Origin: Terriglobia bacterium | Lineage (GTDB): Bacteria; Acidobacteriota; Terriglobia; Bryobacterales; Bryobacteraceae | Assembly: GCA_010084195.1 (NCBI GenBank) | Contig: RGPS01000005.1 | Span: forward strand, 1 to 64,000 | DNA length: 64,000 nt | Direction of reading: 5' to 3' | Shown here: piece by piece, positions 28,662-38,615 of the stretch | Numbering within the stretch: the first letter of the stretch is position 1 | How the letters are laid out: each line of letters opens with the position of its first letter | Made by a program: the position numbers and the translations under genes | The notes under the pieces: generated by a model | What the model was told of the DNA's origin: nothing | Seen by the model: only the letters and a program-made list of their open reading frames with translations | The model's database searches: none

Positions 28662-28817
28662 TTATCTTCTCTCCTTGTCAGCGACGAGGGACTTCAGGCG
28701 TGCGAGTTCGCCATCAATGCGGCGTCCCCGCGAAACCAGCAGGAAGACAAACGCCGTGATGATGATCCACGCGGCTGAGTAGCCGTAAAACAGATATGTG
28801 AGGTTCGTAATGTCCAT
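28662..28817 (-). CDS. ccmD: CcmD-like small membrane protein
   Basis: 51 aa, not easily noticed because of its size. It has one transmembrane helix (AAWIIITAFVFLLVS) after a short N-terminus with YLFYGYSA, then a positive and helical tail (RGRRIDGELARLKSLVADKE). Size, topology and position right after ccmC match CcmD, which in System I bridges CcmC/CcmE and the CcmAB ABC complex and helps release holo-CcmE. Last ccm gene of the operon; its stop is 4 bp from the start of the ManD-like gene. Confidence 0.8.
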   Translation of the reverse strand: MDITNLTYLFYGYSAAWIIITAFVFLLVSRGRRIDGELARLKSLVADKERR

Positions 28818-28853
28818 CGTCGTGAAACCTTCTGATTCTATAACGGTCTGGTC

Positions 28854-29534
28854 TTAGATTGAGTGAAGTTCGCGCCGGAGCGAGTCGATTTCGCGTTGGG
28901 CGGTTTCCTGATGTTGGCGGATCAGGATGAGGGCGGTGCAGATCAGGAATACCGCCAGAACGCCGAGGCCGAAAGGTGCGCGGAATTCCGGGGCCATGGT
29001 GCCGGTTTCGAGAACCGGACCAGGGTGCTGCGTCCGCACGTTGGGCAAACGGATGGCCATGAGGACGAGCGGAATATCGGCGTAAGCAAAGATGGCGACA
29101 AAGGCTGATATGGAGGCACGCTGGGTTGGTTCGGCGATGGCGGGGCGGACCAGCAGGTAGCCGAGGTAGAGCAGGAAGCACATCAACTGGCTGGTCATGC
29201 GGAGGTCCCAGGCCCACCAGATGCCCCACTGATTGCGGCCCCAGATGCTGCCGGTGACCAGGTTGACCAGCACCAGCATGGTGCCGACCTCGATGCAGGA
29301 GACCGAGATGGAATCCCACAGGAAGTTCTTCTTTACCAGAAAGAGAATGCTGGTGACGAGGGAGACGGTAAAGAAAATTTGGGCGTTGATTGCAGCCGGA
29401 ACGTGGATGAAAATGATGCGGTAGATGGCCCCCTGCATGGCTTCATCGGGCAGGCCCATGAAAACCGTTTTCAGGTTGGGGATCATCACCAGGGCGGCCA
29501 GGATGGCCAGAATGTAGATCGCTTTTTCTCGCAT
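28854..29534 (-). CDS. ccmC: Haem exporter/haem-handling protein CcmC
   Basis: 226 aa with six transmembrane helices. The tryptophan-rich haem-handling WWD signature is in WGRNQWGIWWAWDLRMTSQL near residue 100, flanked by the periplasmic histidines HVPAA and (in the weaker second loop) the R/H-containing segment. CcmC transfers haem to apo-CcmE in the periplasm. It is 36 bp upstream of ccmD and 9 bp downstream of ccmB, in the order A-B-C-D normal for System I. The C-terminus (QHQETAQREIDSLRRELHSI) is more charged than in E. coli. Confidence 0.9.
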   Translation of the reverse strand: MREKAIYILAILAALVMIPNLKTVFMGLPDEAMQGAIYRIIFIHVPAAINAQIFFTVSLVTSILFLVKKNFLWDSISVSCIEVGTMLVLVNLVTGSIWGRNQWGIWWAWDLRMTSQLMCFLLYLGYLLVRPAIAEPTQRASISAFVAIFAYADIPLVLMAIRLPNVRTQHPGPVLETGTMAPEFRAPFGLGVLAVFLICTALILIRQHQETAQREIDSLRRELHSI

Positions 29535-29543
29535 TCGTTTTCC

Positions 29544-30242
29544 TCAGACTATCAGGATGAACTCAATCATATACAGAGCCAGGGACGTGTAGATCACGTC
29601 GAACCCGACCAGAAGCCGCAGGGAGGCCAGGGCCTCTCCACTCGCCGCCTGACCAAACATCGGCTCGCCGCCCAGCAGCGCCGTCGTGGTGCCCATGGCA
29701 CCAATCAGCAACGGGATCAAAATTGGGTAGAGCAGCACGGGCAACATCAGTTCGCGGAGCCGGATATTCACAGTGACGGCTGAAAATGCGGTGCCGACCA
29801 CGGTGATACCCCAGGTCGCCAACGCCATCACCAGCAGCAGCCCCCCGAACCTGTCCGTCCAGTGAATGTTGTAAAACAGGCCGAAGACCGGCAGGGAGAT
29901 CAGTTCCACGATGAACAGCAGGAGGAACGCCGCCACGGATTTTCCCAGGAAGATGGCCCAGGCGGGAGCCGGGGAGGCGATCAGGACGTCCAGGCAGTCG
30001 TTGGGGAGTTCGCGGGCAAAGCTGCGGTTGACGATCAGGGCGCCGGCGAAGGAGAAGACCAGCCAGAGCATGCCGCCCGAGATCGCATAGAGTTCTTCAC
30101 GCCCCAGGTCGAACGCGAAGCTGAACAGGACCAGGATGACGAGCGCGAAACTGGCACTTGCGTTGATGGACTCCTTGGTGCGGAGTTCGGTTTGGAGGTC
30201 TTTCTTCGCGATGGCGAGTGCGGTAATCAGGCCTCGTTTCAT
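29544..30242 (-). CDS. ccmB: CcmB, membrane subunit of the Ccm ABC transporter
   Basis: 232 aa with six transmembrane helices. The N-terminus IAKKDLQTELRTKESINASA and segments FAGALIVNRSFARELPNDCL, LIASPAPAWAIFLGKSVAAF and LPVLLYPILIPLLIGAM are characteristic of CcmB. With CcmA it forms the ABC complex that uses ATP to release holo-CcmE from CcmC. It follows ccmA after 16 bp. Confidence 0.9.
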   Translation of the reverse strand: MKRGLITALAIAKKDLQTELRTKESINASASFALVILVLFSFAFDLGREELYAISGGMLWLVFSFAGALIVNRSFARELPNDCLDVLIASPAPAWAIFLGKSVAAFLLLFIVELISLPVFGLFYNIHWTDRFGGLLLVMALATWGITVVGTAFSAVTVNIRLRELMLPVLLYPILIPLLIGAMGTTTALLGGEPMFGQAASGEALASLRLLVGFDVIYTSLALYMIEFILIV

Positions 30243-30258
30243 GCTTGATTTTGCCTCA

Positions 30259-30969
30259 TTATTCCGCCACCGGCCCGTCGCCGTAGGTTCGGTAGAGCCA
30301 GCCGGGGTCGGCTAACATTTCAGGCGTTTGGGGACCGGTATGGACGATCTTGCCGCGTTCGAGGAGGGCCACGTTGGTGGCGAGTTCCATGGCTTCGCGG
30401 ATCTGGTGAGTGGACATGACGATGGTGGAGCCACGGGACAGGGCGTCTTTCAGAAGAGACTGGAGGACGTTAATGGCTCGGTCGTCGAGCGAGGTAAACG
30501 GTTCGTCGAGGAGCAGCAGTTCGGGTTGGTGGATGAAGGCTCTGGCGACGGCGAGGCGCTGCCGCATGCCTCTGGAGAATTCCCTGGCCATGCCGTCTTT
30601 CACGCGTTCCAGACCTACCCGTTCCAGGGCCTCCATGGCGGCCTTTTCGGGGTTGTCGACGCCGAGGAGGCGCCCGAAGAGCATCAGATTCTCGAGAGCG
30701 GAAAGGTCGTCATACACGCCGATTCCGTGGCCCAGATAGCCGGTCTTGCGGCGGACGATGTCGCTGCGGGAACCATCACCAAAGATCTTCACGTCGCCCT
30801 TTGTGGCTCGAGAGAGATTGGCCAGGATTCGAAGCATGGTTGTTTTGCCTGCCCCATTGCGTCCGAGCAGGGCCATGCACGCGCCCTGGGGTACCTGGAG
30901 ACTGGCCCCACGCAGGGCCGGGTAGTCCCCGAAGTACTTCCAGACGCGATCAGCTTCGACCGCGAGCAT
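30259..30969 (-). CDS. ccmA: CcmA, ATPase subunit of the Ccm ABC transporter
   Basis: 236 aa. Walker A is GRNGAGKT near residue 36, the signature motif is FSRGMRQRLAVARAF, Walker B is LLLLDEPFTSLD and the switch His is in STHQIREAME. The size and neighbourhood (ccmB next) identify CcmA. It overlaps the preceding gene (30950-32062) by 20 bp, so the non-canonical membrane protein is translationally coupled to the transporter. Confidence 0.9.
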   Translation of the reverse strand: MLAVEADRVWKYFGDYPALRGASLQVPQGACMALLGRNGAGKTTMLRILANLSRATKGDVKIFGDGSRSDIVRRKTGYLGHGIGVYDDLSALENLMLFGRLLGVDNPEKAAMEALERVGLERVKDGMAREFSRGMRQRLAVARAFIHQPELLLLDEPFTSLDDRAINVLQSLLKDALSRGSTIVMSTHQIREAMELATNVALLERGKIVHTGPQTPEMLADPGWLYRTYGDGPVAE

Positions 30970-32062
30970 TCTTAGAGGCCTTTTTTACCGCTGCGGCTTC
31001 GACGGCTGCTTCTTTCTGGTCGGCTGGTACAGACTTTCGATAGAGCAGGACAAAGCTGAGGGTCAGCATGGAGAGGACGCTCAGCAAGACCCACTTCACT
31101 GCCAGAACTGTAGACCAGAGCTCGGAGGAGCCGAGGGTCAGGCCGTAGAGTCTGGGCAGGTTCATGGTGAGGGCCGGCTGGCCACTGCCGCCTTCGCCTC
31201 TACCTTCCCCGCCACTGGCTGTTGCGGAATCGGCGAGGGCGCCTGTGCCTTCCACTGTGAAATGAATAGCAGGTCCGTCAACGCCCCAGATGGTGGCCTT
31301 CGTTCGGGGTTCCTGGCCGAGATTCTTCAGGCCGTCGCCTTTGAATTCGACGCCGACCGGAGCAATCATCCTGGTTTGACCACCTTTACTGAGGATTTGG
31401 TCGTCGAAGACGCCAGGGGTCTGGAAGGGCATGCTCCATTGCAGATCGACGCGGGATTCGCCGGGTTTGATGGGGAAATCGAGCTTGAAGGTATTGGGTT
31501 TGGGGCCGGGATCCGGAGCTTTCCGAAGAGGCAGGCCACCGGGCGCGAGCGCATTGACTTCCACTTTGCCCTGTGCGCCGGCAGGGAGCGCGAACTGCAG
31601 CGTTCCGGCAGTGGGGTTGTTCCAGGTTGTTTTGCCTTCGTTGCGGAAGACATAGCTCTCGCTGACGGTCAGGATGCCATTGGCTCCAGGTTCCAGCAGG
31701 ATCATGTGCTGGTCAATCCGGGCCTCGCCGGGCGTACTGGTTGACTCGAAGACAGGAATGACAACTGCTGTGAGGGGGGAACCCGGGGGCAGCATTTTGT
31801 TGTACTGGACGCCGCCGTAAACTGCCTGGAGAAGCAGTGGGCCACCGCCGCGACCGGGGGCGACATCTTCGGTGAAGAGGAACTTACCCTGCGCGTCGGT
31901 CTTGATGCTGTTGAGGAATTGGGGGCCCTGCTGACTGGTCTGGAACAACGTGACGGTGACGCCGGCGGCTGGCTTGCCGGAAGTGGTGTTGGTCACCAGG
32001 CCATCCACGCCGGCCAGAGCAAGGGGGCAGCACAGGAGAAATGTCGTTATGGTGCGCTTCAC
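30950..32062 (-). CDS. Exported membrane-anchored protein with carboxypeptidase-regulatory-like domain
   Basis: 370 aa. Signal peptide (TITTFLLCCPLALAG), then a carboxypeptidase-regulatory-like beta-sandwich at ~18-75 (VDGLVTNTTSGKPAAGVTVT, TDAQGKFLFTEDVAPG). The central ~220 residues are beta-rich with no recognised family. A single transmembrane helix lies at ~325-345 (WVLLSVLSMLTLSFVLLY), followed by a basic Lys/Ala-rich cytoplasmic tail. It lies inside the ccm operon, overlapping ccmA by 20 bp and the zinc-ribbon gene by 4 bp. It is not a standard System I component. A periplasmic scaffold or chaperone for apocytochromes or CcmE is possible; this is inference from position. Confidence 0.65.
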   Translation of the reverse strand: MKRTITTFLLCCPLALAGVDGLVTNTTSGKPAAGVTVTLFQTSQQGPQFLNSIKTDAQGKFLFTEDVAPGRGGGPLLLQAVYGGVQYNKMLPPGSPLTAVVIPVFESTSTPGEARIDQHMILLEPGANGILTVSESYVFRNEGKTTWNNPTAGTLQFALPAGAQGKVEVNALAPGGLPLRKAPDPGPKPNTFKLDFPIKPGESRVDLQWSMPFQTPGVFDDQILSKGGQTRMIAPVGVEFKGDGLKNLGQEPRTKATIWGVDGPAIHFTVEGTGALADSATASGGEGRGEGGSGQPALTMNLPRLYGLTLGSSELWSTVLAVKWVLLSVLSMLTLSFVLLYRKSVPADQKEAAVEAAAVKKASKNARGRS

Positions 32063-32517
32063 TGCTTGATCTCCGCGTCATGCTTTTTCTCCGGATCAGC
32101 GGACATAGGCTTGCCGCATTCGCCGCAGAACTTCAGGGCTTTTTCGAAGCGGGCTCCGCAACCGGGGCAAACATTTTGTTTTGGGGCTACCACCACTTCA
32201 GGTGCCCTGGGCGGGGGAGGAGTTTTACCGGTGATTTGACCCAACTCCACTTTCAGCCGGTCTTCTTCGGCCCGAACGCGGGCAAGCTCCTTCTGGAGCT
32301 CAACTTTTGTGGCGGCGTAATCGTCATCAGAAAGCTTGTCGAGGCGATATTCAAACTGGAGGTCGCGAAGGTTCTCGTAGATTGCCGCCTTCCGCTCGTC
32401 CAGATGGCGGAACGGAGAAACAGGGGCCACCTTCGGGAGATCAGAAGGGCGAATAAACACGAGGAAGCCGACCATTGCGGCTCCGAGTAAAGCTCCAAAA
32501 ATCAGGCCCGGATCCAC
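32059..32517 (-). CDS. CcmI-like helical protein with C-terminal zinc ribbon
   Basis: 152 aa. One N-terminal transmembrane helix (LIFGALLGAAMVGFLVF), then a helical segment YENLRDLQFEYRLDKLSDDD that resembles the short N-terminal coiled region of CcmI, the apocytochrome-binding factor of System I. After a Pro-rich linker there is a two-knuckle zinc ribbon, CPGCGARFEKALKFCGECG. Canonical CcmI has TPRs instead, so this is a different architecture. It starts 1 bp after ccmH ends and overlaps the next gene by 4 bp. It may be a reduced CcmI whose TPR part is replaced by another carrier. Confidence 0.6.
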   Translation of the reverse strand: MDPGLIFGALLGAAMVGFLVFIRPSDLPKVAPVSPFRHLDERKAAIYENLRDLQFEYRLDKLSDDDYAATKVELQKELARVRAEEDRLKVELGQITGKTPPPPRAPEVVVAPKQNVCPGCGARFEKALKFCGECGKPMSADPEKKHDAEIKQ

Positions 32518-33003
32518 TTATTCGAGCCCTTCCGTATCGCGTTCGATCTCAGCGCGGTACTTCGCAAAAACGGGGTCGTCCGAGGCTGCGGGGGCATGCC
32601 CGGCAGTGGCGGGTTTCAGAGTTTTCGGGCCCTGCATTTTCTTAATTGCGATCCAGATAACTCCGCCGCCGGCCAGCAGGGAGAGATAGGGGATCATCCA
32701 GAAGAAGGAATTGGGATCCTGCCGGAAGATTTTCTCGCCGTATTCCTTCACAAACGAGGCGACGATGGCCGCGTCGCTCTGGCCTTCACGCTGCATCTTG
32801 TAGATCTTGCCCCGAGCGGGTTTGCAGAAGTGACACTGGCCAGACGACATGTTGCAATTCAGATTTTCCATGCAGGAACCGCACTGGCAGGAAAGCTTGT
32901 TGCCGATGCGTTTGACCTCGTCGCTCTCCAACTGCGCTGCAGTTTGGGCAAAAGAAGCGACGGCCACGAACAGCAGGAGGAAACTAAACTTCAACCGGGG
33001 CAT
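32518..33003 (-). CDS. ccmH: CcmH-like thioreductase with atypical cysteine cluster
   Basis: 161 aa. Signal peptide (KFSFLLLFVAVASFAQ), then the CcmH three-helix domain. The canonical LRCxxC motif is replaced by LSCQCGSCMENLNCN followed by GQCHFC, i.e. six cysteines in about 25 residues. The following IYKMQREGQSDAAIVASFVK and EYGEKI match CcmH. One transmembrane helix (IPYLSLLAGGGVIWIAIKK) and a tail with KYRAEIERDTEGLE follow. CcmH keeps the CxxCH thiols of apocytochromes reduced for haem ligation. The extra cysteines suggest a different redox relay or metal binding. The start overlaps ccmF by 20 bp. Confidence 0.8.
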   Translation of the reverse strand: MPRLKFSFLLLFVAVASFAQTAAQLESDEVKRIGNKLSCQCGSCMENLNCNMSSGQCHFCKPARGKIYKMQREGQSDAAIVASFVKEYGEKIFRQDPNSFFWMIPYLSLLAGGGVIWIAIKKMQGPKTLKPATAGHAPAASDDPVFAKYRAEIERDTEGLE

Positions 33004-34990
33004 TTTCTTTGGCCACTCCTACGACTTCAGTGCGCGTGTAGGTACGCGCTACTTTACTTGGCACCAGACAGACCAGGGTACCGCCGATCAGGACGACGAC
33101 ACCAATCCAGATCCATTCGACGAGCGGGAACACGTACGCCTGCAGGGTGGCTTTGTCGCCGGCACGGGCCGCGTAATTGATGTAGAGATCTTCGTTGAGG
33201 CGGCTGCGAAGAGCCACGACGGCTGTCGCCTGCTGGGCAGCCTTATAGAAGCGCCGGGTGGGTTCCACAATTTCGAGGAACTCGCCGTTCTTCGTGACTT
33301 CCAGTTTGGCCGTTTCCCACGTGTAGTTCGAGAGTTCACCTTCGGTAAGATCAAGTACCTTCAGGTTGTATGCGCCGACCTTCATGGTGGAGCCTTTGGC
33401 TACTTCGCCAACTGAGGTTTCGTTGAAGGGGTGCCCGCTCCAGCCAATGAACATAAGGACCATGCCCATGTGGACCAAATAGCCACCGTAGCGGCGTGTA
33501 TTGCGGTGGGTCAATTCGATAACGGCCGGGATAAAGCCGGATTGGGTCTTTTCGCTGATGGCGTTCGCGCCGCGGAAGAATTCCAGCACGATGGTGGCGG
33601 TAACGAAGAAGCAGAGGCTGAGCGAAATGATGGAGTACGGATACCGCATGCCGCCCGCGAAAAGGGCCGCTGCGGTGATGAGGGTGCCGATACCGGGCCA
33701 CTGGAAGTTCTTCCGGAGGCTGTCGATGGAGGTTCTTCGCCAGGCAAACAGAGGTCCGACGCCGGTCAGGAACAGCAGGAACAGACCGATGGGAACCATC
33801 AGGCGGTTGAACCAGACGGCATCAAGGCTGATTTTTTCGTTCGAGAGCTTTTCGGTGATGACCGGGAAGAGGGTGCCCCAGAGGACAGCGAAGCAACTGG
33901 CGAGCAGGACCAGGTTATTAAACAGGAAGCTTGATTCGCGGGAGACGACGCTTTCGAGGTCCGATTCGCTGCGGAGGTAGTTGAGGCGGTCCAGAATCAG
34001 CCATACCGTGGCGGCGATACCGAGGGCGAGGAAGGCGACGAAGTACTTGCCGATGGGGGATTCCGCGAAGGCATGGACCGAACTCACGATGCCTGAGCGG
34101 GTCAGGAAGGTGCCGAAGATGCAGAGGAAGAAGGTGGAGGCAATCAGCACCATGTTCCAGACCTTCATCATGCCCTTCTTTTCCTGCATCATGACGGAGT
34201 GGAGGAAAGCGGTGGCGGCCAGCCAGGGGAGCAGGGAGGCATTTTCCACTGGATCCCACATCCAGTAACCGCCCCAGCCGAGAACGTGGTAGGCCCATGC
34301 GGAACCGAGCGCGATGCCCATCCCCTGGAACAGCCAGGTCACGATGGACCAGCGGCGAGTGGTGTGAATCCAGCTTTCGCCGGGGGCTTTCTCGATGAGC
34401 GAGGCCATTGCGAAGGCGAACGGTACGGCGAAGCCCACATATCCCAGGTACAGCATGGGGGGGTGAATCACCATCGCCCAGTACTGCAGCAGGGGGTTCA
34501 GGCCCATGCCGTCAGCGACCGAGGTGACTACTTTGTCTACCGCCAGAACCTGGAACGGGCTGGCAATAAAGGCATTAAAATTCAGGAAGAACAACTGGAT
34601 GGTGGACAGGATGGCAACTACCCAGGGCAGAAGGTTTCGGTGCGTTTTCCTTGAAGTCAGGACGGCAACGGCGGCGTAGGTGGAAAGCAGCCAGCTCCAA
34701 AAAAGGAGTGAGCCTTCCTGTCCGCCCCACCATGCCGCGAACTTGTAGAACGACGGCATGTCGCGATTGGTGTGGCTCGCCACGTAGGCCATGCGGTAGT
34801 CGCTGGTCATCAAGCCATATACGAGGATGCCGGCGGCGGTGGAGACCAGTGCCCAAACTGCCAGCACGGCTCTTTCGCCGCTCAGCGTCAGGAACGGCTT
34901 GCCTTTCAGCCGCCCCACAACACTTGCAATGATCGAGTACAGCGAGATACAGAACGCCAGCAGAAGCGCGAGAGCGCCTACGTTTTCCAT
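32984..34990 (-). CDS. ccmF: CcmF, haem lyase subunit
   Basis: 668 aa with about fifteen transmembrane helices. The WWD signature is complete: LGWGGYWMWDPVENASLLPW near residue 230, flanked by conserved histidines (MVIHPPMLYLGYVG, HTTRRW, FLHSVMM). The later periplasmic loop GMVLMFIGWSGHPFNETSVG is also family-typical. CcmF takes haem from holo-CcmE and, with CcmH, joins it to apocytochrome CxxCH motifs. The gene follows ccmE after 46 bp and overlaps ccmH by 20 bp. Confidence 0.92.
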   Translation of the reverse strand: MENVGALALLLAFCISLYSIIASVVGRLKGKPFLTLSGERAVLAVWALVSTAAGILVYGLMTSDYRMAYVASHTNRDMPSFYKFAAWWGGQEGSLLFWSWLLSTYAAVAVLTSRKTHRNLLPWVVAILSTIQLFFLNFNAFIASPFQVLAVDKVVTSVADGMGLNPLLQYWAMVIHPPMLYLGYVGFAVPFAFAMASLIEKAPGESWIHTTRRWSIVTWLFQGMGIALGSAWAYHVLGWGGYWMWDPVENASLLPWLAATAFLHSVMMQEKKGMMKVWNMVLIASTFFLCIFGTFLTRSGIVSSVHAFAESPIGKYFVAFLALGIAATVWLILDRLNYLRSESDLESVVSRESSFLFNNLVLLASCFAVLWGTLFPVITEKLSNEKISLDAVWFNRLMVPIGLFLLFLTGVGPLFAWRRTSIDSLRKNFQWPGIGTLITAAALFAGGMRYPYSIISLSLCFFVTATIVLEFFRGANAISEKTQSGFIPAVIELTHRNTRRYGGYLVHMGMVLMFIGWSGHPFNETSVGEVAKGSTMKVGAYNLKVLDLTEGELSNYTWETAKLEVTKNGEFLEIVEPTRRFYKAAQQATAVVALRSRLNEDLYINYAARAGDKATLQAYVFPLVEWIWIGVVVLIGGTLVCLVPSKVARTYTRTEVVGVAKENAPVEV

Positions 34991-35036
34991 GATTGTTTTG
35001 GACCCAGCTCTTTAAATAAAGTTACGGACTTGAGAT

Positions 35037-35498
35037 TTACAGACTTGAACGGTAGGAGGAACTCTGTCCCTCAGTGGTGATTTTCTTCTGCAGGCCATCC
35101 GGAGCCATACCCGGCTTGGGAGCATACTTCGAGGCACATTTCGCCTGTACTTCCTGCGCGTGAAAGACACCGGAATCATCCAGGCGACCGCCGGCAAGGG
35201 CCTGTGCGCCATCTTTGAAGGTATCCGGCAGCGGGTCCCGACCTTCGTAAACCACCGAGAGGACTTTGGTTTCCTGCACCAGGTTGAACTTGACGACGCC
35301 CGCCGTGCGGACAATGGAGTTTTCCTGAACGTCGCCGCCGACGCGAACTCTCTTCGAAGACGCCTGGTGGCCCATCTGATTTAGTTCCGTGATGGTGACG
35401 TAATAGGTCTTCGAACTTTGGATCGACGCAGTGGCGACCCAGGTGATTGAACCAACAATCAGCGCGATCAAAATTCCGAACTTCGCGTATTTGCGCAT
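35037..35498 (-). CDS. ccmE: CcmE haem chaperone, CxxxY variant
   Basis: 153 aa from the ATG at 35498, with AAGGGG 5-10 bp upstream; a longer frame from 35537 lacks a ribosome site. One N-terminal signal-anchor (FGILIALIVGSITWVATASI), then an OB-fold (YYVTITELNQMG, RVRVGGDVQENSI). The haem-binding segment reads GVFHAQEVQAKCASKYAPK: the canonical H-x-x-x-Y is replaced by C-x-x-x-Y. CxxxY CcmE proteins are known from archaea and Desulfovibrio-type bacteria. It is the first ccm gene, 70 bp after the anti-sigma gene in the same direction. Confidence 0.9.
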   Translation of the reverse strand: MRKYAKFGILIALIVGSITWVATASIQSSKTYYVTITELNQMGHQASSKRVRVGGDVQENSIVRTAGVVKFNLVQETKVLSVVYEGRDPLPDTFKDGAQALAGGRLDDSGVFHAQEVQAKCASKYAPKPGMAPDGLQKKITTEGQSSSYRSSL

Positions 35499-35568
35499 AG
35501 CCCCTTCTTTCCGTGCCTTACAGGCCGCAGTTCGCACTGCGCACCTCTAACCTTTTAGTATACCGCCG

Positions 35569-36276
35569 CTAAATCCCATGAGTACCCTCGGGATGACACA
35601 ATAAGCATGCCTCCCGGGCCGAGGCACCCTCTGCTGCAACCGCTGCGAACACATTCTCACCCTGCGACCACGAAACCATCTCGAGGCTTGCACCCTTTGA
35701 ACCAAACACACCCATTGAGGCTCCATGTCGACTGACCGGGGACTTCCCACTCTTCCAGACGAGCACGGTTCCCCGCTCGGAGCGATCATTGGCGGCCTCA
35801 AATTTCAATGATGCAACCATGGTGCCACGAACGGTTGCCACCCGTGCTCCCGTAATCCGAACTGCCGAAGAATGCGCAGGCAGCTCTATCTCTATGCCGC
35901 TGCGGGACTTAACCCATTTTTGGAGACGAGCCGGGTCACTGGAGTAAAGGTCGCAAGCTTCCGGCGAAGCGGCGAGCGCGGCCAGTTCTGCGGGGTTCGG
36001 CTGCGTGGTTTGGCGCAAACCACCTCGCGCCTTGCTGAACTCCCAGAGCAAATCAACCGATGCCAGCAGCATGAGGACTGCGATCACTGGCCACAAAAGC
36101 CGGGTCGGGCCAGAGTCCGCACGCCGGACTGCGCCGGGTGACTGAATTTTGGTCCAGAGTCCGGCAGGTGCCGAAACTGGTCGGAGTTGCGCACGAAGTT
36201 CTGCTTCCAGCCAATTATCTTTCCCCATGTTGCCTTCCCCGATATTGCCTTCTGCCATGTTGCCATCCGCCATCAT
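35569..36276 (-). CDS. Membrane anti-sigma factor with C-terminal CxxCH haem-attachment motif
   Basis: 235 aa; the ATG at 36276 overlaps the sigma gene stop (ATGA), so translation is coupled. Residues 1-20 are made of 5-residue repeats (GNMAE, GNIGE, GNMGK). Residues 21-59 are the cytoplasmic sigma-binding part, a single transmembrane helix lies at ~60-80 (LLWPVIAVLMLLASVDLLW), and the periplasmic domain (~85-235) resembles the RskA/zf-less anti-sigma ectodomain (LQKWVKSRSGIEIELPAHSS). The last residues are EACLLCHPEGTHGI: C224-L-L-C-H228, a c-type haem attachment site, which would face the periplasm. The ccm genes follow 70 bp downstream. Haem binding is inferred; the motif itself is certain. 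Confidence 0.75.
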   Translation of the reverse strand: MMADGNMAEGNIGEGNMGKDNWLEAELRAQLRPVSAPAGLWTKIQSPGAVRRADSGPTRLLWPVIAVLMLLASVDLLWEFSKARGGLRQTTQPNPAELAALAASPEACDLYSSDPARLQKWVKSRSGIEIELPAHSSAVRITGARVATVRGTMVASLKFEAANDRSERGTVLVWKSGKSPVSRHGASMGVFGSKGASLEMVSWSQGENVFAAVAAEGASAREACLLCHPEGTHGI

Positions 36277-36279
36277 GCC
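36220..36279. repeat. Four 15-bp tandem repeats across the sigma/anti-sigma junction
   Basis: Units at 36220-36234, 36235-36249, 36250-36264 and 36265-36279 share the pattern (plus strand) TTCCCCATGTTGCC with changes. On the coding strand they include the sigma stop and anti-sigma start and encode the pentads ...MAD, GNMAE, GNIGE, GNMGK. Units are divisible by three, so copy-number change would lengthen the anti-sigma N-terminus in 5-residue steps. Confidence 0.75.
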
Positions 36280-36836
36280 AGTCGCCTCCCCATTTTCCCC
36301 TTGAGTCGTCGTTCCAAAATACTGTGTGCCCGGTTGAGCCGGGAGGCCACGGTTCCCGCAGGGCAATCGAGAATCGTGGCAATTTCGTCGTAAGGCAGCC
36401 CCAGTGAGTAGCGGAGGACGACAACCATTCGGTATTCGGGGTCGAGTCTGGCGATGCTGTCGCGCAGCAGGCTGCTCTGCTCGGTTTGCAGGAGATCTTC
36501 CAGCGGACTTCGCCCCGGACCCTTCAGGAAAGCTACTACCGCGGCCACAAGGGGCAACAGGCGGCGGGTTTTCCTTTTCTGGTCGAAGCAGGCATTTACA
36601 ACGAGGCGGTACAGCCAGGATTCGAAACCGGACTCCCCTCGAAACTTGCCGATCGCGGCGAAGAGCTTCACGAAACTCTCCTGGGTGACATCTTCTGCGG
36701 TTGCTGCGTCGCCTGAGTAGCGGAGGGCTATGGTGTAGACCCGGTCTTTATGAAGATTGAACAGGGACCGCTGCGCATCGGTCTCGCCGCGGCGGCAGGC
36801 CTCGATCAGGGCGGACTGTGTGTCTTCGAGCAGCAA
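36273..36836 (-). CDS. ECF RNA polymerase sigma factor
   Basis: 187 aa from a TTG at 36836, with GAGGG just upstream. Region 2 is at ~25-95 (LFNLHKDRVYTIALRYSGDA, AEDVTQESFVKLFAAIGKFR, FESWLYRLVVNACFDQKRK) and region 4 at ~130-180 (LDPEYRMVVVLRYSLGLPYD, TVASRLNRAHSILERRL). An ECF-type promoter lies 18 bp upstream of the start (36854-36882), so it probably activates itself. Its partner is the anti-sigma factor at 36276 (ATGA overlap). The gene order sigma, anti-sigma, ccmE-F-H...A-B-C-D, all minus strand, suggests that the sigma factor controls cytochrome c maturation. Confidence 0.9.
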   Translation of the reverse strand: MLLEDTQSALIEACRRGETDAQRSLFNLHKDRVYTIALRYSGDAATAEDVTQESFVKLFAAIGKFRGESGFESWLYRLVVNACFDQKRKTRRLLPLVAAVVAFLKGPGRSPLEDLLQTEQSSLLRDSIARLDPEYRMVVVLRYSLGLPYDEIATILDCPAGTVASRLNRAHSILERRLKGKMGRRLA

Positions 36837-36853
36837 ATTCCCTCAGCACTAAT

Positions 36854-36882
36854 TTAGACGTGGCCGACACCGGAAATCTTCC
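36854..36882 (-). promoter_or_regulatory. ECF-type promoter of the sigma/anti-sigma(/ccm) unit
   Basis: On the minus strand GGAAGATTTCC (36882-36872) is followed by CGTCTAA (36860-36854). The distance from GGAA to CGTC (22 bp between first bases) fits the common ECF promoter form GGAAC-N16/17-CGTC. Transcription would start near 36847, about 10 bp before the TTG at 36836. Autoregulation through such promoters is common for ECF factors. Confidence 0.55.
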
Positions 36883-36901
36883 AGAAGTTTTTAGAGGAAA
36901 A

Positions 36902-37588
36902 TCAGGCGCGGGCTTTGTGACGGCGTCCCAGAAGCCAACCCAGGCCGACCACCCCGAGGGCGCAGCCCACTTCAAACCCGTAGTGCAGGGTTCGCGAGGG
37001 ATGAAATGTGTCGTGGAACCAGGGGTCGCCGGCGATCATGTCGCCGCCAACGCGGCCCAGAATCGCAGAGCCGATCCAGATGATGATGGGGTACTTGTCC
37101 ATCAGCTTCGCCAGCAGGGTGCTGGTGAAAGCGACGAACGTGATGGACAGGATGAGGCCGAAGATCAGCAGACTGAGGCTGCCCTTTGACGCGCCGGCAA
37201 CGGCCAGAACATTATCGACCGACATTGTGACATCGGCGACCAAAATCAGCCACACCGCATGTTTGAGAGATTGCACATGGTGTTCTTTGCTGGTTGCCTC
37301 TTCGGCTTCGGTCAACAGCTTGACTGCAATCCAAAGGATCACGAGGCCGCCGCCCAGCTTCAGGAACTGAATCTGTAAGAGTTGCGAGGCGAAGAATGTG
37401 AGGATGATTCGGAGAACAACAGCGGCACTGGTCCCGAACAGAATGCCCAGCTTGCGTTGCTTTTCCGGGAGGGATTTGACGGCCAGGGCGATGACGACTG
37501 CGTTATCGCCGCCCAGCAGGATGTCGATCAGGATAATCGAGAGCGCATCCAGAAGGAATGTTGAGGTGATGGCAGGGAGCGCAGGCAC
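36902..37588 (-). CDS. TerC-family integral membrane protein (YjbE/YkoY type)
   Basis: 228 aa with seven or eight transmembrane helices. The TerC signature acidic residues are in the membrane: SIILIDILLGGDNAVVIALA in helix 1 and VADVTMSVDNVLAVAGASKG in the second half. The family exports manganese or other metals and helps metalate exoenzymes; TerC members also appear in tellurite resistance. No yybP-ykoY riboswitch could be recognised in the 120 bp upstream. It is 65 bp upstream of the sigma gene in the same orientation and divergent from the sigma fusion at 37710. Confidence 0.88.
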   Translation of the reverse strand: MPALPAITSTFLLDALSIILIDILLGGDNAVVIALAVKSLPEKQRKLGILFGTSAAVVLRIILTFFASQLLQIQFLKLGGGLVILWIAVKLLTEAEEATSKEHHVQSLKHAVWLILVADVTMSVDNVLAVAGASKGSLSLLIFGLILSITFVAFTSTLLAKLMDKYPIIIWIGSAILGRVGGDMIAGDPWFHDTFHPSRTLHYGFEVGCALGVVGLGWLLGRRHKARA

Positions 37589-37709: not shown

Positions 37710-38615
37710 ATGTCCCTCTTTCACGAAATCTACGAAGCGCATGCAAAGGATGTTCACCGCTTCGTGCTGTACCTTTCGGGGGATCGGGCTTTGGCTGATG
37801 ACATTACCTCGGAGACGTTTATCCGGGTCTGGACCGCGCCGGAGCCGGTAAGGCTGGCGACGGTGAAGGCCTGGTTGTTCACCATCGCCCGCAACCTGTT
37901 TCTGATGGACCGGCGCAGCATTTCGCGGCGGGAAGCCCTGGATGAGGCGGTGCCCGATCTCCATCGAAGTGCCTTGGCGGCTTCGGAGGCGAAGCAGGAA
38001 CTGGAGCGGGTGCTGGAAGCGCTTCGGCATTTGCCGGAGATCGACCGGGCGGCGCTCCTGATGAGGGCAAATGATGGCCTGGCTTATGAGGAAATCGCCG
38101 TGGCGCTGGGGCTTTCGCTATCCGCCGTAAAGGTAAAGATCCACCGGGCCAGGCTCAAACTGAGCAAGTTTCGTAACGAAGGAGTTTTTTTTCAAATGAC
38201 CGTTACCCGCGATGTAATTAACGATCTTCTGCCGCTCTATGCAGCCGGCGAAGCCAGTCCTGACACGGTTGCGCTGGTGGATGAGTACCTGGTTCACCAC
38301 CCCGACCTTGCCGAGGCTATTGAAGCACTCCGCATGGACCCCCTGTCGGAGCTTGCTGTCCAACTTCAACCAAACAAGGAAAAGGAAACACTGAATATGA
38401 CTAAGAAACTGTTACGCCTCCGTGGCACGCTGATGGGTCTGGGGATCTTTCTCACCTGCACGCTCGCCAGCTTCGGCGGCCGCGACGGCCATATCACGTG
38501 GACGTTCATTCAGGTGACTTCCACGCCGGTGATCGGGCTGGTGGTGGTGGCTGCTCTGGCATCGTGGGTGGGGTTCTTTGCGGTGCGCCGGCGTCTGGAA
38601 CACACCGGGCTTTAG
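37710..38615 (+). CDS. ECF sigma factor fused in frame to a membrane anti-sigma-like domain
   Basis: 301 aa. Residues 1-160 are an ECF sigma factor: region 2 (YLSGDRALADDITSETFIRV, VKAWLFTIARNLFLMDRR) and region 4 (LEALRHLPEIDRAALLMRAN, LSAVKVKIHRARLKLSKF). Residues 163-301 begin MTVTRDVINDLLPLYAAGEA, the usual start of a separate anti-sigma factor, and end with two transmembrane helices (GTLMGLGIFLTCTLASF, VIGLVVVAALASWVGFFAV). The junction contains a perfect AAGGAG and a run of eight T before an internal ATG at 38196. With seven T the sigma frame would stop at the TGA overlapping that ATG. TGTAACTTT at 37647-37655 could be an ECF-type -35 box. See the separate site entry. Confidence 0.75.
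   Translation: MSLFHEIYEAHAKDVHRFVLYLSGDRALADDITSETFIRVWTAPEPVRLATVKAWLFTIARNLFLMDRRSISRREALDEAVPDLHRSALAASEAKQELERVLEALRHLPEIDRAALLMRANDGLAYEEIAVALGLSLSAVKVKIHRARLKLSKFRNEGVFFQMTVTRDVINDLLPLYAAGEASPDTVALVDEYLVHHPDLAEAIEALRMDPLSELAVQLQPNKEKETLNMTKKLLRLRGTLMGLGIFLTCTLASFGGRDGHITWTFIQVTSTPVIGLVVVAALASWVGFFAVRRRLEHTGL
38179..38198 (+). promoter_or_regulatory. Internal Shine-Dalgarno, T8 run and ATG at the sigma/anti-sigma junction
   Basis: AAGGAG at 38179-38184, eight T at 38185-38192 and ATG at 38196-38198. The spacing (11 bp from SD to ATG) suits independent translation of a 139-aa anti-sigma protein. Loss of one T puts the sigma frame on TGA at 38197, giving the standard ATGA overlap; the present T8 fuses the two. 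Homopolymers of this length can slip in transcription or be miscalled. Confidence 0.6.

Follow-up and report, generated by a model that had tools for sequence, protein, structure and literature searches.

Why should an anti-sigma factor end in CxxCH, the substrate motif of the cytochrome c maturation (Ccm) machinery, when its gene lies directly in front of the genes for that machinery? The question is raised by the 64,000-nt stretch analysed here (the window), which lies within a 6.5-Mb assembly. On its minus strand the gene for an extracytoplasmic function (ECF) sigma factor is coupled to that for a one-pass anti-sigma factor, and a ccm operon begins 70 bp further on (Table 1). Sequence and Pfam matches confirm this arrangement, including the CxxCH end, as it stood in a preliminary description. 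On balance we favor the explanation that the pair consists of an ECF sigma factor and an anti-sigma factor whose tail is a Ccm substrate, with maturation capacity as the input.

The anti-sigma factor ends in CLLCHPEGTHGI, and the terminal sequence that includes CxxCH is EACLLCHPEGTHGI. In an AlphaFold model (mean pLDDT 75), an N-terminal helix is followed by a single long helix of membrane type (residues 57-85) and then by a domain in which two helices combine with strands. Over CxxCH the chain forms a short helix of moderate confidence (~70), which gives way to a loose end. From what is known of the family, the N terminus probably lies inside the cell and the tail in the periplasm. The protein has no Pfam or NCBIfam match, and no zinc motif is present in the anti-sigma factors of the window's branch; one homologue (locus L025) matches the NCBIfam family 'anti-sigma factor' below the cut-off.

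Searched against 150 genomes of the family, this protein finds matches at E ≤ 0.01 in 20 of them. Seventeen of the 23 places, the window included, hold CxxCH homologues, and the same sigma factor adjoins them in all 17 loci (L025-L041). One further place is cut by a contig end (L013), and five lack the motif: L019 and L022 encode other anti-sigma-like proteins; L021, L023 and L024 look unrelated. Because the 17 rows of alignment A1 were chosen by a CxxCH screen, the invariance of C, C and H in it is by construction; alignment A2 likewise contains motif-bearing proteins only. An unbiased test of the tail is provided by partners picked by gene order next to sigma matches and not by motif. The sigma factor as query finds 42 places in 35 of the 150 genomes (E ≤ 1e-30, paralogues included). 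At 28 of them sigma identity is at least 47%, and CxxCH ends all 27 readable partners; the G049 partner (L052) is cut or frame-shifted and was dropped from the count, an apparent CxxCH at that place being out of frame. Loss of the motif from close homologues, named in the preliminary description as a possible refutation, is therefore not seen. Below 47% identity there are 14 places, two with CxxCH (G071, G111), ten with a paralogous pair, and two with CxxC and no His (G014, G084).

Twenty-seven CxxCH rows form one clade (support 100/97) in a midpoint-rooted tree of 42 sigma sequences. G014 and G084 adjoin this clade (94/76), and G052, G071 and G111 are placed elsewhere. With lengths of just 80-113 aa, eight of the CxxCH partners (G058, G147, G053, G102, G030, G059, G111, G071) have little but the tail left to sense with; these versions would make a minimal, easily tested switch. 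Among 672 open reading frames (ORFs) in loci around such pairs, called heuristically by a caller that missed some anti-sigma genes, 27 end in CxxCH within 20 residues; 26 of these are anti-sigma proteins and one is a multihaem cytochrome. Given that proportion and the conservation in every readable partner, a chance origin of the tail can be rejected. Rejected too is the idea that CxxCH is special to ccm-linked copies, since free-standing copies and a branch of longer relatives keep it. As for the paralogous ECF pair (L103-L111, L072), its partner mostly ends in LAWTW or LAWKW and its promoter is nearly the same, so that cross-talk between the two pairs is possible.

The pair stands in cis with ccm genes in nine genomes, followed by ccmE onwards in G000, G124, G024, G119, G121, G140 and G093 and by a lone ccmF in G053 and G102. 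On the sigma tree, cis cases are intermingled with trans cases. Of 42 rows, 34 have a fixed motif, [GC]GAAG-N17-CGTC, 5' of the sigma gene, and a looser form is found within 130 bases upstream in 39 of 42 loci, paralogues included. A search of positions 35300-37000 of the window found no sigma-70-type promoter; its sole terminator-like site falls within the anti-sigma gene and is no more than chance would give.

To assess control in trans, a weight matrix built on 23 promoters of sigma genes was used to score the 350 bases 5' of ccmE; the thresholds were set after the scores had been seen, and three are reported (10, 12 and 14 bits). At 10 bits or more, 11 of the 18 genomes whose pair lies apart from ccm (8 of 14 genera) have a site ahead of ccmE, as against none of 61 pair-less genomes, these being the fetched genomes without a sigma match and not all such genomes (G130 and G039 were dropped as too short). 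At 12 and 14 bits the counts are 10/18 and 7/18, and the pair-less genomes still give 0/61. No such site is seen in four genomes with the pair already in cis, or in two with only a relative of the pair. The contrast gives 3.5e-9 by the Fisher test and 1e-4 by the Mann-Whitney test, values that overstate independence because the genomes are related. A paralogous pair is also present in three of the 11 trans genomes (G034, G067, G134).

Across loci of pair genomes, 1.7% of 4830 scored sequence windows reach 11 bits. Seven of the 48 sites at this level are neither promoters of the sigma gene or its paralogue nor upstream of ccmE; four of the seven fall within ccmE itself, and one each is ahead of cydA, close to the end of a contig and elsewhere. 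The cydA product belongs to an oxidase that does not need cytochrome c. Its site, a single case (G076, L033 10833, plus strand), scores 15.4 bits and is divergent from the pair, with the start of cydA some 45 bases downstream. All 30 pair genomes encode CcmE (26) or CcmF (the other four: G102, G105, G108, G147); these four gave no ccmE match, their CcmF lies on or close to the edge of a contig in three of them, and the only CcmF found in G102 is the lone copy adjoining the pair. The lone ccmF genes that follow the pair are at L117 (G053) and L118 (G102), and G053 has a separate ccmE-ccmF locus elsewhere.

Gene order in cis and matching promoters in trans thus make it very probable that the sigma factor controls ccm. 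The preliminary description had proposed feedback on ccm through the sigma factor. Promoter evidence of both kinds speaks against ccm transcription being independent of it, and this part of the proposal appears sound; maturation as the signal is one of two live readings, since the peroxidase neighbours described below also fit a redox or peroxide signal. A haem-c tail is the simplest account because CxxCH is kept at the outer end of the protein and because the partner sigma factor appears to regulate the machinery that loads this motif or, among the longer relatives, adjoins genes for haem-c enzymes. From the sequences and from family knowledge, covalent attachment of haem to the tail is likely.

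The events may be pictured as follows. The cell's own Ccm machinery (System I) would take the CxxCH tail as a substrate, and the sigma factor would transcribe its own operon and ccm, which adjoins it in cis here but in many relatives lies apart behind a matching promoter. How firmly the anti-sigma factor holds the sigma factor would depend on the state of the tail. When Ccm is failing or swamped, the tail would stay haem-free, the sigma factor would be freed, and more Ccm would be made. We infer that release occurs in the haem-free state, and likewise the route by which the signal would cross the membrane, for which proteolysis would be usual. System I is lax about its substrate. Similarly, the bacterial synthase CcsBA appears to need only CXXCH, according to the portion available of one report (PMC11727520).

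Several results weigh against this explanation. No Pfam cytochrome family matches any of 17 anti-sigma homologues at E ≤ 0.1. A link to ccm is absent by these tests in 6 of 26 judgeable pair genomes (G112, G062, G076, G139, G009, G049), although G049 has a 22-bit site just beyond the scanned span. A scan of the window's genome for the promoter pattern gives seven sites, and the reversed control gives 17, so that there is no excess. The near relatives G014 and G084 have CxxC followed by Thr or Ser, with no His. In the longer branch, peroxidase-type genes face the pair in 14 of 28 distinct loci, and none of the 15 loci tested has a match to a ccm gene. That maturation itself is the signal seems plausible but falls short of being probable.

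The longer branch bears most directly on the first alternative, that the haem-c tail is real but reads periplasmic redox state or, like a microperoxidase, hydrogen peroxide, ccm being one target of a peroxide or respiration regulon. A profile of A1 finds matches in 32 of 396 genomes of the phylum. The stronger ones beyond the window's family are longer proteins of a zinc-finger branch, most with an N-terminal H...CxxC, and all of those aligned have a membrane-type stretch, a periplasmic domain and CxxCH. Outside the two known genomes 28 loci were read; 18 of them have CxxCH, and the ten weaker ones do not. Records of the longer form (15 loci) come from Blastocatellia, Pyrinomonadaceae, Chloracidobacterium, other Acidobacteria, 'Bacterium HR10', and a Deltaproteobacteria-labelled and a Tectomicrobia metagenome-assembled genome. 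Twelve of the 28 distinct loci carry a divergent gene whose product has two CxxCH motifs (CCP_MauG in four of the five examined), and two carry a KatG-like catalase-peroxidase gene (Pfam peroxidase confirmed for one); di-haem peroxidases, moreover, depend on Ccm. Of 26 distinct loci, 15 have promoter-type sites resembling GGAATAA-N14-GTGTTAT that face in one direction or in both, with both directions seen in six (shuffled control, 0.0025 per strand), counts that are not blind, since the pattern was spaced after the sequences had been read, and that come from 32 scanned loci including six duplicates. One locus, L165, adjoins FixO and COX1 genes; other longer-branch loci have no such gene at that place. 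CxxCH together with haem-c enzyme neighbours speaks for a haem-c tail in general and is compatible with failed haem attachment, redox state or peroxide as the signal.

Against a redox or peroxide input stands the fact that, in the window's branch, the assignable strict promoter matches are those of the pair, its paralogue and ccmE. A stricter pattern yields 35 sites in 27 other pair genomes and 22 in the control; 17 of the 35 are at the pair, its paralogue or ccmE (one inside ccmE), and the other 18 are at chance level, for which reason a haem-motif protein behind a G024 site (L288) is not claimed as a target. Neither the scan of the window's genome nor that of the 27 genomes shows further regulon targets above control. 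No peroxidase was seen by eye behind the other sites (17 loci read, with a gene starting just past the site in six), a weak point because those sites are no commoner than in the control (35 against 22 in all). The peroxidase-type neighbours favor peroxide for the longer branch, whereas for the window's branch maturation or respiration is suggested by the proteins of minimal length and by the one cydA site. As an account of the window's pair, a redox or peroxide signal seems to us unlikely. A broader picture is possible though somewhat doubtful: an anti-sigma family found across the Acidobacteriota may carry its own haem-attachment tag, the window's branch reading maturation directly, with a haem-free tag freeing the sigma factor to raise production of Ccm and, in at least one relative, perhaps of the bd oxidase that is independent of cytochrome c.

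It is also conceivable that the Cys pair is a thiol switch or metal site that is never loaded with haem, the His serving as a metal ligand. Anti-sigma factors commonly contain zinc motifs or respond to redox state, as the accessible part of one ECF paper indicates (PMC7406223), and the His-free CxxC of G014 and G084 would suit such a role. Yet His directly follows the second Cys in 29 of 31 short-type partners, CcmE or CcmF is encoded in every pair genome and CxxCH is the Ccm substrate motif, and the shortest proteins hold little else that could complete a metal site. A thiol or metal function is thus quite improbable. The tails of L071 (G084) and L112 (G014), with Ser or Thr in place of His, constitute a natural test of the haem idea.

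The notion that the pair is not specific to ccm, which would be co-transcribed here by chance, draws on relatives with neighbours of unrelated function, among them a gene identified by eye as phenylalanine-hydroxylase-like, and is already hard to hold in view of nine cis cases over several branches and the trans promoters. The idea that the pair merely happens to precede ccm was rejected on the same contrast of 11/18 with 0/61.

The pair resembles RpoE/RseA and SigW/RsiW, in which an ECF sigma factor and a class I transmembrane anti-sigma factor are paired, in having one operon, a one-pass anti-sigma factor and a promoter on its own gene. It differs in that the window's branch lacks a zinc motif and a Pfam match and has a CxxCH tail as its sensory end; the N-terminal signs of a class I anti-sigma domain, H and CxxC, are kept in the longer relatives. 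RseB and MucB, periplasmic regulators in the RpoE/AlgU pathway, are separate proteins, unlike the domain within the anti-sigma factor here. Their fold likeness to the periplasmic domain of the longer relatives is weak: in a search with a longer-form model (pLDDT 82), Foldseek placed RseB/MucB at ranks 2-5 (E 0.025-0.041, TM ~0.2), the top match being 1vr8 (E 0.0035), with nothing at E ≤ 0.001. Covalent haem in signalling is known from DcrA and the Geobacter haem-c chemotaxis sensors, which are akin to a haem-tailed anti-sigma factor in that respect but have PAS-type or other folds on chemoreceptors or kinases. In HasI/HasS and HxuI/HxuR, too, a haem-related signal reaches an ECF sigma factor. 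There, extracellular haem is sensed through an outer-membrane receptor, as reviews of haem regulation describe in the parts available (PMC11442138 and PMC12670364 for HasI/HasS, the latter only for HxuI/HxuR); here the haem-attachment motif is inside the anti-sigma factor, and the targets are ccm genes.

Among the literature matches listed, there is no description of a CxxCH anti-sigma factor, of a sigma factor controlling ccm, or of a dedicated sensor that matches Ccm capacity to need. The available portions of two ECF papers (PMC7406223, PMC8103513) have no entry for cytochrome, heme or CXXCH. In its accessible part, PMC13393422 concerns methionine and MetR in Shewanella and contains the terms 'ccm genes' and 'cytochrome c maturation'. 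PMC10024687, as far as its text was available, describes another kind of haem tag, and the available text of PMC3601427 has none of the terms sought; neither bears on a CxxCH anti-sigma factor. A regulator that is itself a Ccm substrate would be a simple answer to the matching of capacity, and the pair may be how these Acidobacteriota cells notice failing cytochrome c assembly. Covalent haem would then be a sensory principle added to ECF/anti-sigma switches.

The minus-strand order in the window is a TerC-family gene, the sigma and anti-sigma genes, ccmE, ccmF, ccmH, a zinc-ribbon gene, a gene for an exported protein, ccmA, ccmB, ccmC and a ccmD-sized ORF. The sigma factor belongs to the ECF group by PF04542 and PF08281, both above cut-off, and has regions 2 and 4 only.

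Table 1. Coordinates of the sigma/anti-sigma pair and the ccm operon in the window
Feature	Position	Strand	Basis and remarks
ECF-type promoter GGAAG-N17-CGTCTAA, 5' of sigma gene	36854-36882	-	Pattern search of the window's genome
ECF sigma factor	36273-36836	-	187 aa, TTG start; Pfam Sigma70_r2 8e-20, Sigma70_r4_2 3e-14
One-pass anti-sigma factor	35569-36276	-	235 aa; 4-bp overlap with sigma gene
Anti-sigma transmembrane helix, residues ~57-85	36022-36108	-	AlphaFold model
Anti-sigma periplasmic domain, residues ~95-214, two helices then strands	35635-35994	-	AlphaFold model
CxxCH (CLLCH) codons, anti-sigma C-terminal tail	35593-35607	-	Sequence
ccmE, Cys-type (KCASKY replaces haem-binding His)	35037-35537	-	Pfam CcmE 6e-25
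ccmF	32984-34990	-	CcmF_C 9e-55, Cytochrom_C_asm
ccmH	32518-33003	-	Pfam CcmH 1.6e-11
Small zinc-ribbon protein, CcmI position	32059-32517	-	Sub-cut-off matches only, mostly zinc ribbons
Exported protein, role not assigned, 370 aa	30950-32062	-	CarboxypepD_reg below cut-off
ccmA	30259-30969	-	ABC_tran 3.5e-28
ccmB	29544-30242	-	CcmB 9e-31
ccmC	28854-29534	-	Cytochrom_C_asm 1.2e-23
ccmD, by position and size	28662-28817	-	51-aa ORF with hydrophobic stretch; only DUF3311 below Pfam cut-off

A System I set is present, with CcmB, E, F and H recognised by their own Pfam families and A and C by generic ones. These six genes of the list given in the preliminary description stand; its 'CcmI-like' gene matches zinc ribbons and a few other families, all below cut-off, and ccmD is assigned by position and size only. 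The zinc-ribbon gene keeps its position in six other ccm operons, and the ccmD-sized ORF is kept at the same place in L025, L026 and L035. The exported protein, encoded between the zinc-ribbon gene and the place of ccmA, is likewise kept in six other ccm operons. The listed ccmE ORF starts at a GTG (35537), and the ATG that lies 70 bp past the anti-sigma stop is at 35498.

The His haem ligand of CcmE is absent from the window's protein, and the Cys type is found in all 90 hits within the family (87 genomes). A Cys variant of CcmE is already known. In the window the Cys-type protein (KCASKY) coexists with ccmH. A second ECF sigma gene lies on the plus strand at 37710-38615; its ORF continues in frame into an apparent anti-sigma factor, giving one polypeptide of 301 aa of which Pfam recognises the sigma part only. 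Similar genes are separate in G053 and G102, where they adjoin the lone ccmF.

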